Source: Candidatus Scalindua sp. SCAELEC01
GTDB lineage: Bacteria; Planctomycetota; Brocadiia; Brocadiales; Scalinduaceae
Direction of reading: 5' to 3'
Assembly (NCBI GenBank): GCA_004282745.1
Contig: SHMT01000001.1
Location: 1 to 64,000, forward strand
DNA length: 64,000 nt
The notes below the pieces were generated by a model. That model saw nothing but the letters and a program-made list of their open reading frames with translations, was not told the origin of the DNA and made no database searches. Below, piece by piece: positions 54,878 through 61,502 of the stretch. Made by a program: the position numbers and the translations under genes. Every line of letters starts with the position of its first letter. Position 1 is the stretch's first letter.

Positions 54878-56209
54878 ATGATGCAGAGTGAGATAAATTT
54901 TGATACAGTTTTATATGCGGAGACATTAAATAGGGAGAATATTGGTGGATTTAAGAAAAAAATTTACAGTTCTGTTGATGAATTCGTAGGGTTAGAAAAG
55001 CAAGTAAAAAAAATAGAAGAGAGCATAAGCAACGCTGCGGATCCTGTGGGTGTGAAAGATGAAATTTTGGTCCTGGGAATATCCTATTGGATATTGGGTA
55101 AACAGGATCAGGCCATTAAGTCTCTTTCCGACTTGAAATCGCGTAAAATTGCGTCCTATTACCTCGGGAAATGTCATCAAGAGCTTGGTAACTACGAAAA
55201 GGCGCTTGAGTTTTTTGAGCGTTCAAAACGGTCAGATGTTGAAGAGTTTGACATCCAGATCGATATAGCAGAGACAAAACGGATGTCGGGAGATCTGCAG
55301 AATGCATTAAAAATGATCCAAGCGTTATCTAAAAATCATGACAACGATGCAAACCTGCATTACCAGTGGGGGCACTGTCTTGACGATAAGGGTGAATATG
55401 AAGATGCTTTAGCTCACTACAATCGTGCCCTGGACATAGCGTCTGATCATCCGAATACCCTGTTTCGACTTGCTTATAATTTTGACCTTAATGGCGAGGA
55501 CGACAAAGCTATTGAGTATTATGAAAAATGTGTCGGCTTGGTTCCCACGTATGCAAATGCGATGATAAATCTTGGGGTTCTCTATGAAGATCGTGAGGAG
55601 TATGAAAAGGCAATTTTTTGTTTTGAAAAGGTTGTAAGGTTAAATCCTGTACATAAAAGAGCGAAGCTGTTTCTTAAAGATGCTAAATTCGGTTTGGATA
55701 TGTGTATAGATGAAGACAAGGCGAAAAAGGAAGACAAAGAGACAGAGGTTTTGAACATACCAATATCCGATTTTGAACTTTCTGTGAGGAGTAAGAATTG
55801 TTTGGAGAGGATGAATATTAACACGTTAGCAGATTTGACCCAGATAACCGAGGCAGACCTCCTATCGTATAAGAATTTTGGTGAAACTTCTCTGAATGAG
55901 ATTAAACATGTGCTTAACCAAAAAGGGTTGAGACTTGGGCAGACCCTTGAAGAGAGCAAATCAACGGAAGAGCTTGCAGGTATTGATGTTGGAGAAGTGA
56001 ATGGCGGTTTGTCAAAGCTTGTATCAGACCTGCCTCTTTCTACGCGTTGTAAAAGTGCCTTGAAGAAGATAAATATTGAGAGGGTAAGTGATGTTGTGGT
56101 GAAGGGGGAGCCTGAGCTGTTGGATGATGGGCTGAAGCAGGCCTATATTGATGAATTGAAGGCGAGTCTTAAGGAGGAAGGTTTTGAACTTCATAGCGAA
56201 GAGGAGTAA
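54878..56209 (+). CDS. TPR protein with RNA polymerase alpha-CTD-like domains
   Basis: This protein has 443 residues. TPR units from about residue 60 to 285 are clear, for example YYLGKCHQELGNYEKALEFF, HYQWGHCLDDKGEYEDALAH and AMINLGVLYEDREEYEKAIF. At about 293-350 ISDFELSVRSKNCLERMNIN and LLSYKNFGETSLNEI match the alpha C-terminal domain of RNA polymerase (L-S-x-R-x-x-NCL and the NFG-x-x-S-LxE-I block). At about 374-440 a second, degenerate copy reads DLPLSTRCKSALKKINIERV. The fusion suggests DNA or transcription-factor contact tethered to a protein-binding scaffold. It precedes ruvA by 220 bases. AAGGGG precedes the ATG. Confidence 0.82.
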   Translation: MMQSEINFDTVLYAETLNRENIGGFKKKIYSSVDEFVGLEKQVKKIEESISNAADPVGVKDEILVLGISYWILGKQDQAIKSLSDLKSRKIASYYLGKCHQELGNYEKALEFFERSKRSDVEEFDIQIDIAETKRMSGDLQNALKMIQALSKNHDNDANLHYQWGHCLDDKGEYEDALAHYNRALDIASDHPNTLFRLAYNFDLNGEDDKAIEYYEKCVGLVPTYANAMINLGVLYEDREEYEKAIFCFEKVVRLNPVHKRAKLFLKDAKFGLDMCIDEDKAKKEDKETEVLNIPISDFELSVRSKNCLERMNINTLADLTQITEADLLSYKNFGETSLNEIKHVLNQKGLRLGQTLEESKSTEELAGIDVGEVNGGLSKLVSDLPLSTRCKSALKKINIERVSDVVVKGEPELLDDGLKQAYIDELKASLKEEGFELHSEEE

Positions 56210-56429: not shown

Positions 56430-57017
56430 ATGTTTGATTATATCTTTGGTCTTGTTGTGGAAAAAAATCCATCTTCAGTAATAATAGAGACCAACGGTAT
56501 TGGATATAAAATCCATATTCCTTTATCAACCTATGAGAGGACTACGGAGAAGTTAGATGCAAAAATATTTACAAAGCTTTTTATTAAAGAAGATGAGATA
56601 AAGATTTATGGTTTTTCCTCTCGGGAAGAGAGGGCGCTATTTGATTTGTTGCTTTCGGTGAATAGTGTTGGCCCCAATATGGCGCTTACAATTTTGTCTG
56701 GTAGCTCTGTTCGGCAATTCAAGGATATGGTTCTTGGGAACGATTTGAGGACCTTACAAAAGATAAAGGGTATTGGTAAGAAAACAGCAGAAAGAATTAT
56801 TCTTGAGTTGAGAGAGACTATCCAGGTTGTGGTTCCTGGGGAAGTGTCTTCGGTTGAGATGGAGAAGAGGGGTGTTGTGTCAGATGCAATCATGGCCCTG
56901 ATTGCCCTTGGATATACAAGGGGTGTTGCTGAAAAGGCCGTAAAATCAGTTTCTGAGAATTTTGATGTTTCGGATGGGGTCGGACTGCTCATTAAGGAGT
57001 CATTAAAGAAGGTTTGA
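56430..57017 (+). CDS. ruvA: Holliday junction DNA helicase subunit RuvA
   Basis: RuvA binds four-way junctions and recruits the RuvB motor. The 195-residue protein shows the N-terminal OB fold (VEKNPSSVIIETNGIGYKIH), then LFDLLLSVNSVGPNMALTIL and the helix-hairpin-helix LQKIKGIGKKTAERIILEL, then the C-terminal domain with ALIALGYTRGVAEKAV. ruvB follows after 88 bases. No ruvC is in the window. Confidence 0.95.
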   Translation: MFDYIFGLVVEKNPSSVIIETNGIGYKIHIPLSTYERTTEKLDAKIFTKLFIKEDEIKIYGFSSREERALFDLLLSVNSVGPNMALTILSGSSVRQFKDMVLGNDLRTLQKIKGIGKKTAERIILELRETIQVVVPGEVSSVEMEKRGVVSDAIMALIALGYTRGVAEKAVKSVSENFDVSDGVGLLIKESLKKV

Positions 57018-57105: not shown

Positions 57106-58125
57106 GTGACAGGTGAAAATGTTCTTTCTCATGGTATGATTCCTGAAGATAGCAGTTTTGATGTCGCTTTGCGTCCAAAGAGATTTTCTGACTTTATTGG
57201 TCAGGAGTTGGTCAAAAAAAACCTGCGCATATATCTTGAGGCGTCACAGAAGAGGGGAGATGTATTAGACCATATTTTGTTTTCCGGTCCTCAAGGGCTA
57301 GGGAAGACTACGCTTTCTCAGATCGTAGCTTACGAGGTTGGCGCAGAGATTCGGGCTACCTCTGGACCTGTTCTTTTTAAACCGGGTGACTTGGCTGGTA
57401 TTCTTACCAATTTAAAATTTGGTGATATGCTTTTTATTGACGAGATCCATCGATTGAATACCACAATTGAGGAGTATCTCTATTCGGCGATGGAGGACTT
57501 TTCTATTGATATCTTAATAGATCAGGGTCCGAATGCAAGGTCTGTGAAGATACAGCTTCCGCGTTTCACGCTTATTGGTTCAACGACACGTGAAGGATTG
57601 TTGACGCCGTCATTTCGGGCCAGGTTTGGTGTGTTGGAGAGACTGGAGTTTTATCCATGGGTTGAATTACAGGAAATTGCGGTAAAGTCGGCACTGAAAC
57701 TCGATATAGAGATAGATAAGAAAAGTGCGGAGTTGGTGGCGAAAAGTTCCCGAGGTACTCCTCGTATTGTAAATAGGTTTGTAAGGCGTATTCGGGATGT
57801 AGCTCAGGTTGAAGGCTACAATAAAATAACAGAAGATATTGCGTGGAAAGGATTGGCTATGCTGGGGGTGGATAAGAACGGTCTCTGTGAAATGGATAGG
57901 AAGATTTTGCGTACCGCAATACTCCATAATGGTGGCCCGATCGGTTTGAAGACTATAGCGGTTTCCGTTAACGAGCAAGAAGATACCATTGAAGAGGTGT
58001 ATGAGCCTTTTTTGATACAGAGGGGCTATCTGAGCAAAACGTCTCGGGGTAGGATTGCCACACAACTGGCTTATGACTATTTTGAGAAGAGCTGCCTATT
58101 GGAAAAGCAGGACTCGCTTTTATGA
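57106..58125 (+). CDS. ruvB: Holliday junction DNA helicase motor RuvB
   Basis: This AAA+ ATPase drives branch migration with RuvA. It has 339 residues. LRPKRFSDFIGQ, Walker A GPQGLGKTTL, Walker B LFIDEIHRLN, the signature region GSTTREGLLTPSFRARFG and the C-terminal winged helix (LIQRGYLSKTSRGRIATQ) are intact. The usual Pro-Gly-Leu of Walker A is Pro-Gln-Gly-Leu here (family form GPPGLGKT). The start is a GTG at 57106 preceded by AAAGGT. queH starts four bases after its stop. Confidence 0.95.
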   Translation: MTGENVLSHGMIPEDSSFDVALRPKRFSDFIGQELVKKNLRIYLEASQKRGDVLDHILFSGPQGLGKTTLSQIVAYEVGAEIRATSGPVLFKPGDLAGILTNLKFGDMLFIDEIHRLNTTIEEYLYSAMEDFSIDILIDQGPNARSVKIQLPRFTLIGSTTREGLLTPSFRARFGVLERLEFYPWVELQEIAVKSALKLDIEIDKKSAELVAKSSRGTPRIVNRFVRRIRDVAQVEGYNKITEDIAWKGLAMLGVDKNGLCEMDRKILRTAILHNGGPIGLKTIAVSVNEQEDTIEEVYEPFLIQRGYLSKTSRGRIATQLAYDYFEKSCLLEKQDSLL

Positions 58126-58129
58126 TCAC

Positions 58130-58702
58130 ATGAAAAAACTTTTACTGCACATTTGCTGTGCTGGTTGTTTGTGTGCACCCCTTGAAGAGTTGAGGCGGGA
58201 AAAACTGCACGTTCACGGCTATTTCTACAATCCTAATATTCACCCACTCTTAGAATTTAGGAGAAGGTTAAAGGCTGTTCACATTTTTCAGGAAAGTGAT
58301 CCGATAAAAATTGACTATTGTGAAGAGTATGGATTGCGAGAGTATCTGGATGAGGTAGATCATAAAGGGGATCACAGATGTGGGGATTGTTATACATTGA
58401 GGTTGAGGGCTACAGCAAACTATGCAAAAGCTAACGGTTTTGATGCATTCTGCTCAACTCTCCTTTTTAGTGAACATCAGGATCATGAAAATGTAAAAAA
58501 GTGTGGTTACACAGTCTCTGAACAGGTTGGAATACCATTTGAATATAGAGATTATCGATATTTATGTGAGTGTAGTCGCAAGATAGCAAGTAAAAAAATG
58601 CTCTATAAACAGTCTTATTGTGGATGTATATTTAGTGAATTTGAAAGATATGAGGATACAACACGATATGTGTATGAAGGTTGGAAAATAAAAAAGCCAT
58701 GA
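58130..58702 (+). CDS. queH: Epoxyqueuosine reductase QueH
   Basis: This cobalamin-independent enzyme of about 190 residues performs the last step of queuosine synthesis. Conserved cysteines appear in LLHICCAGCLC near the start, HRCGDCYTLRL, and QSYCGCIFSE. FYNPNIHPLLEFRRRL and CSTLLFSEHQDHENV are the other family blocks. The usual CCAPC motif is CCAGC here. I chose the ATG at 58130; the upstream frame overlaps ruvB. tgt, which inserts the queuosine precursor, lies two genes downstream. Confidence 0.9.
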   Translation: MKKLLLHICCAGCLCAPLEELRREKLHVHGYFYNPNIHPLLEFRRRLKAVHIFQESDPIKIDYCEEYGLREYLDEVDHKGDHRCGDCYTLRLRATANYAKANGFDAFCSTLLFSEHQDHENVKKCGYTVSEQVGIPFEYRDYRYLCECSRKIASKKMLYKQSYCGCIFSEFERYEDTTRYVYEGWKIKKP

Positions 58703-58729
58703 AGACAATTTATCTGTTTGGATAAAAAA

Positions 58730-61110
<2,381 letters not shown>

Positions 61111-61166: not shown

Positions 61167-61502
61167 ATGAATTTCTTATTTCTCATGCAAGCAAAAGCTC
61201 CAGGGGGTGGTTTTATGACTCTTCTGGTTCCATTCGCACTCATGTTTGCTATTATGTATTTCTTAATTCTCAGGCCTCAAAGAAAAAAAGAGAAGGACAG
61301 GTTAGAGATGATAGCAAACATAAGGAAAAATGACCGTGTTGTCATCGGTGGTGGGATCTTTGGTGTTGTGGTGTCTGTGAAAGAAAAAGAACTTGTGGTA
61401 CGAGTGGACGATGCCAAGGATGTAAAGGTAAAGGTTGAGAAAAGTGCGGTAACTTCCGTAACTATACCGATGGGTAAACAAGAAGGAATAGAACAGAATT
61501 AG
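61167..61502 (+). CDS. yajC: Preprotein translocase subunit YajC
   Basis: This 111-residue protein has one membrane helix (LLVPFALMFAIMYFLILRPQ) followed by the RKKEKDRLEMI block and a small beta-domain (RVVIGGGIFGVVVSVKEKEL). YajC associates with SecDF at the Sec translocon. AAGGGAG lies 8 bases upstream of the ATG. secDF begins 29 bases after its stop, the common gene order tgt-yajC-secD-secF. Confidence 0.95.
   Translation: MNFLFLMQAKAPGGGFMTLLVPFALMFAIMYFLILRPQRKKEKDRLEMIANIRKNDRVVIGGGIFGVVVSVKEKELVVRVDDAKDVKVKVEKSAVTSVTIPMGKQEGIEQN

Follow-up and report, generated by a model that had tools for sequence, protein, structure and literature searches.

An open reading frame (ORF) of Candidatus Scalindua sp. 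SCAELEC01 (contig SHMT01000001.1) was confirmed to encode a TPR protein bearing two RNA polymerase α C-terminal domains (αCTDs), and a protein with the same tandem αCTD module was found nearly throughout the phylum Planctomycetota. This TPR-αCTD protein, spread across the phylum and normally present in one copy, is proposed, with a probability of roughly 50%, to be a DNA-binding accessory factor of transcription that would make αCTD contacts at promoters. In bacteria, promoter UP DNA and activators dock mainly on the αCTD, which is normally viewed as part of RpoA; the cell biology of the Planctomycetota is unusual, and few of their transcription factors have been characterised.

The gene lies in the window (the whole stretch of 64,000 nucleotides that was analysed), which comes from a genome of 4.6 Mb belonging to the anammox planctomycetes of the order Brocadiales. 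Its frame is open throughout and AAGGGG stands just 5' of the ATG. The parts of the protein and the neighbouring genes are collected in Table 1.

Table 1. Coordinates of the TPR-αCTD gene, its domains and the genes downstream of it.
Feature	Position	Strand	Basis or remark
TPR-αCTD protein, whole ORF	54878..56209	+	443 aa; ATG start, ortholog alignment, Pfam
TPR superhelix, residues ~60-270	55055..55687	+	Pfam TPR_1 103 bits, AlphaFold2 helix pairs, TPR consensus
αCTD domain 1, residues ~284-359	55727..55954	+	PF03118 85.6 bits
Linker between αCTD domains 1 and 2	55955..56020	+	pLDDT <50 at residues 362-376
αCTD domain 2, residues ~382-437	56021..56188	+	PF03118 23.7/24.8 bits; predicted fold
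ruvA	56430..57017	+	conserved downstream neighbour
ruvB	57106..58125	+	conserved neighbour
queH-like (epoxyqueuosine reductase)	58055..58702	+	conserved neighbour; presumably queH
spoIID-like	58718..59980	+	conserved neighbour; first neighbour where ruvAB is elsewhere
tgt (tRNA-guanine transglycosylase)	59977..61110	+	conserved neighbour
yajC	61167..61502	+	conserved neighbour

The TPR part was recognised by TPR_1 in four stretches and was predicted by AlphaFold2 as stacked helix pairs. The RNA_pol_A_CTD family of Pfam (PF03118, cut-off 23.8 bits) gave 99.1 bits for the whole protein, in two stretches. Domain 1 scored as RpoA itself does, with 85.6 bits against 85.1 bits for the αCTD of the RpoA from the same genome, and it carries the SVRSKNCL and NFGETSLNEI blocks that the first-pass annotation had read in it. 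Domain 2 is a weak match, counted as passing, with 23.7 bits alone and 24.8 bits in frame with its neighbour. In the genome search the αCTD match in this ORF had E = 8e-24, and since the same residues are also shared by 36 copies, drawn from 30 families, the αCTD identity is not a matter of chance. The top NCBIfam matches of the C-terminal region were rpoA models, but far under their full-length cut-offs (TIGR02027, 94.9 against 227.8 bits, with the CTD positions alone matched) because the protein lacks the α N-terminal domain. It is not an RpoA, and a normal RpoA is encoded on another contig.

The AlphaFold2 model (mean pLDDT 83.4, mostly 83-96 over residues 61-250) shows, in order, the TPR helix pairs, a long helix at residues 260-292 bearing a MYYDE-type motif, domain 1, a low-confidence linker at residues 362-376 and domain 2. 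PDB matches of the full-length model were mostly TPRs and thus say little on the αCTDs. Domain 1 aligns by sequence with RpoA αCTDs of known structure. When domain 2 was modelled alone (pLDDT 86), all 50 PDB matches listed were αCTDs of RNA polymerase or complexes of the enzyme, including αCTD-DNA and αCTD-sigma complexes, and this weak domain of Scalindua is predicted to adopt the αCTD fold. The αCTD-like identity claimed by the first-pass annotation was therefore upheld: the assignment to generic helix-hairpin-helix modules only, which it had named as the result that would speak against it, was not obtained in the profiles or the PDB matches. Profile scores and structural matches rule out a generic helix-hairpin-helix repair module.

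The protein was compared with known systems. With RpoA it shares the PF03118 family by sequence and predicted fold and, in domain 1, the DNA contacts and the sigma-facing acids; unlike RpoA, it has no α N-terminal domain and so cannot assemble the polymerase core, carries tandem αCTDs on TPRs, forms two clades of its own and is encoded by a gene separate from the normal rpoA. Its repeats are canonical by profile and predicted structure, as in the TPR scaffold proteins (TPR_1/TPR_2; the nearest solved ones are consensus TPRs, the O-GlcNAc transferase TPRs and MamA), from which it differs by carrying αCTDs. An αCTD-like domain outside RpoA is also present in the BREX kinase PglW, a β' variant (PRK14906) and the short PRK07758 (NCBIfam), but the matches were far under the family cut-offs and the architecture is another one. 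The SARP/BTAD activators, e.g. AfsR, likewise have a TPR-like domain in a transcription protein, their BTAD, which lies next to RNA polymerase. The match to this family (PF03704) reached 20.5 bits, however, below the cut-off of 22.1, with no winged-helix domain among the 25 Pfam matches listed, and the protein does not belong to it. No description of the TPR-αCTD protein was found in the full text of the literature searched.

Conservation was analysed in 36 TPR-αCTD copies from the 30 families and in 31 RpoAs from this sample. The set of minor-groove DNA contacts of the E. coli αCTD (R265, N268, C269, N294, G296, S299 and E302, corresponding to R304, N307, C308, N333, G335, S338 and E341 of the Scalindua protein) was present in domain 1, each residue in 36/36 copies except N268 (34/36). 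The DNA-contacting arginine, whose conservation the first-pass annotation had proposed to check, was also kept in the 18/18 Brocadiales sequences, and position 298 (T337) was T in 36/36 domain-1 copies and in 29/31 RpoAs. Of the domain-1 copies, 34/36 had the full combination of R265, N268, G296, S299 and E302, as did 15/31 RpoAs and 1/34 domain-2 copies. The positions of the DNA set were more conserved than random columns, with p<1e-4 for domain 1 and p=0.009 for domain 2 (0.003 without Brocadiales). RNA polymerase αCTDs bind the A/T-rich minor groove at UP elements, and a DNA-contact face kept above the level of RpoA is best explained by such binding, although αCTDs also make protein-only contacts that the same residues could serve, which counts against the DNA-binding reading.

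The acidic residues 259 and 261 of the E. coli αCTD face sigma. Both positions together were acidic in 34/36 domain-1 copies versus 17/31 RpoAs, and the sigma arginine that they would meet, R603 of E. coli σ70, had an equivalent in the 9/9 planctomycete sigma sequences aligned. This equivalent is compatible with an association with RNA polymerase and nothing beyond that, since RpoA and sigma should have the acids and R603 in any case, and these residues do not single out the TPR-αCTD protein. The acids bear on a second way to read the nearly invariant DNA contacts, as those of an architectural or nucleoid-type protein whose αCTD pair would sit on the A/T-rich minor groove genome-wide, the TPRs multimerising or tethering without any contact with RNA polymerase. 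In most of the phylum each chain of such a protein would bear two DNA-binding heads, and domains 1 and 2 are slightly more positive than the RpoA αCTD (net charge +1.3 vs +0.5). Nevertheless, it is an unlikely account: pure DNA binding would not need the sigma-facing acids, whose retention makes a promoter role likelier than a purely architectural one, and in Brocadiales only one intact head is left.

Among the 28 genomes with all three domains, domain 1 had a mean pairwise identity of 0.69, the RpoA αCTD of 0.54 and domain 2 of 0.47; the N-terminal part of RpoA reached 0.52 and the TPRs 0.35. Domain 1 was more conserved than the RpoA αCTD in 93% of the 378 genome pairs, a figure that is descriptive only because genome pairs are not independent. 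Four near-invariant residues (F260, M273, K293 and E297) are specific to domain 1 and suggest that it has a particular partner or prefers particular DNA. A partner surface of this kind would suit a protein-protein adaptor acting in elongation or transcription-translation coupling, in which domain 1 would mimic the RpoA αCTD toward, for example, NusA and not toward DNA; the matches listed for domain 2 also included RNA polymerase bound to NusA or to the ribosome (e.g. 6flq, 8y5l). The strictness of the minor-groove residues, N294, S299 and E302 included, exceeds the needs of a DNA-free role, however, and makes such an adaptor improbable.

The activator-contact face, the other surface that the first-pass annotation had marked for checking, was also kept in domain 1, with T/S285, E286, E/D288, L289 and G315 at high frequency. 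This agrees with a decoy or competitor, the second role suggested in the first-pass annotation, whose free αCTDs would titrate activators (or UP-element sites) from RNA polymerase under the control of a TPR ligand. However, most of these positions are conserved in RpoA too and are not diagnostic, a decoy has no need for a DNA-contact set better than that of RpoA, and near-universal retention in very different lineages favours a core function. The decoy thus appears a poor candidate, and the near-perfect DNA-contact set makes a DNA-binding role likelier.

Domain 2 had been described as degenerate in the first-pass annotation, which proved true of Brocadiales and not of the other lineages. Outside this order the domain retains R265, N294, G296, S299 and E302, with N268 replaced by K or R (28/34 domain-2 copies). 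In Brocadiales the set was mostly lost: the R265 position was still R in 9/18 sequences, the Scalindua domain keeps R390 (= R265) while its NFGxTS loop is gone, and no recognisable domain 2 was found in two of the sampled lineages (G066 and G203). Among the lineages sampled, the degeneration is limited to Brocadiales, and the domain is intact in most of the phylum. Since domain 2 has decayed or been lost there, the tandem αCTD pair is not required in that order.

The distribution of the protein was surveyed with a profile of the tandem αCTD module in 394 Planctomycetota genomes with a completeness of at least 90%. The module was detected in 391/394 genomes and 270/273 genera, which is much stronger than the earlier suggestion that similar proteins may exist in planctomycetes. 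One match per genome was usual, and several of the second matches were RpoA barely above the threshold. In the three genomes in which the module was not detected (G023, G149 and G360) RuvA was likewise absent, and SpoIID was also missing from G360. Relatives of G149 in the same family do have ruvA, which in G268 adjoins the TPR-αCTD gene. As all three negative genomes also lack RuvA, the usual neighbour, assembly gaps are likelier than true gene loss, which is unlikely. The decay of domain 2 in Brocadiales could also be taken as the mark of a degenerate, non-functional fusion kept by chance in one lineage, but the near-universal presence of the module and a domain 1 more conserved than both the RpoA αCTD and the RpoA N-terminal part contradict this, and it is hardly credible.

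The origin of the module was examined in a tree of 102 αCTDs (68 columns), in which the three-way split was supported and the inner detail was not resolved. Domain 1 (support 100/95), domain 2 (97/82) and RpoA (96/94) each fell on one side of a branch, and domains 1 and 2 grouped together. These three separate clades indicate one αCTD capture and one duplication in the ancestor of the phylum, and the simplest history would be a single capture followed by duplication and vertical inheritance in Planctomycetota. Spread by plasmids or phages was rejected, since no match among those listed, from 72,556 plasmid and 50,697 phage records, joined TPRs with an αCTD. The viral scan yielded one lone αCTD only, in a 192-aa protein (VDFELSVRALNCL ... 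DFGRKSLREI) at L138:3881-4459 of the viral-classed contig IMGVR_UViG_3300031853_000079, which could be phage-borne or a cellular fragment wrongly classed as viral.

The position upstream of ruvAB on the same strand, given in the first-pass annotation, was borne out, and gene order was compared at 33 informative loci. The next recognised same-strand gene after the TPR-αCTD gene was ruvA at 20/33 loci, spoIID at 6/33 and tgt at 3/33; ruvC sits between the TPR-αCTD gene and ruvA in one genome (G130), and the longer loci continue as ruvA-ruvB-queH-spoIID-tgt-yajC-secD. No gene was widely common upstream in the loci compared across the phylum, so that the TPR-αCTD gene heads an old conserved cluster. 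The cluster joins unrelated housekeeping functions, and its members therefore give little hint of mechanism and do not indicate transcription. Promoter-like sites did not occur above chance. The frequent ruvA neighbour would suit an adaptor of DNA repair in the RuvAB pathway, in which helix-hairpin-helix domains would recruit the scaffold of TPRs to Holliday junctions. This is very unlikely, however: strict linkage to ruvA was rejected because loci from which ruvA is missing still have spoIID or tgt next to the gene, which ties it to the cluster; RuvC was present in 27/27 sampled genomes, so that the protein does not replace it; and the domains are specifically of RpoA type by sequence and fold. 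The change of neighbour once ruvAB moves, together with the constant RuvC, makes a direct role with RuvAB unlikely. As a separate observation, the RuvA_N profile had no match in several near-complete genomes and a weak one in others (G114, G266, G257 and G221), in which RuvA is either unusually divergent or lost.

The preferred reading is thus a transcription accessory factor whose αCTD 1, and outside Brocadiales also αCTD 2, would insert into the A/T-rich minor groove. With their flexible linker, the tandem αCTDs could be seated on DNA like the pair contributed by the two α subunits of one polymerase, while the TPR superhelix would hold a partner, for which the transcription machinery or its regulator is the most plausible candidate. 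The protein would thereby add αCTD contacts at promoters, or compete for them. A stronger version is put forward tentatively, as a doubtful extension: a general and probably essential trans-acting αCTD module, in which a stand-alone TPR protein would act as an accessory polymerase subunit, supplying promoters with a second αCTD pair, and would be under a constraint exceeding that on the polymerase's own αCTD. A whole phylum thus has an additional αCTD pair encoded apart from rpoA, with stricter conservation in one of the two domains than in the polymerase's copy, and Planctomycetota may rely on a transcription factor that has gone unrecognised. Should it act at promoters, planctomycete promoter models and expression work would need to include it. 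The hypothesis is directly testable in Planctopirus limnophila, which is genetically tractable and for which a saturating transposon data set has been published (PMC10632474). That essential-gene study counts 108 proteins of unknown function that are both essential and specific to the phylum; the TPR-αCTD protein is not named in the main-text passages found (PMC10632474).

Several other αCTD-bearing ORFs were also observed. In a few Planctomycetota, further long ORFs of 701-1487 aa (G266:C1:6011019-6011189, G015:C19:17212-17892, G026:C215:8340-8804 and G295:C855:1263-1616) had one to three weaker αCTD matches and apparently belong to other families sharing the domain. Two short ORFs with one good αCTD match each, G290:C1:2123364-2123555 (103 aa) and G114:C1:4088706-4088888 (155 aa), are possibly free-standing αCTD proteins. 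In G295, tandem-αCTD copies (L116:29-607 and L116:1231-2640) adjoin on one contig, one of them running off the contig end, which reflects either duplication at this locus or an assembly that is mixed. Finally, shortened versions of 329-341 aa, in which the αCTD pair is preceded by about three TPRs only, were found in G194, G057 and G257 (L102, L110 and L111). Their occurrence in some families indicates that the N-terminal TPRs are dispensable and defines a minimal conserved core; the whole phylum keeps the last TPRs together with the MYYDE-type motif.
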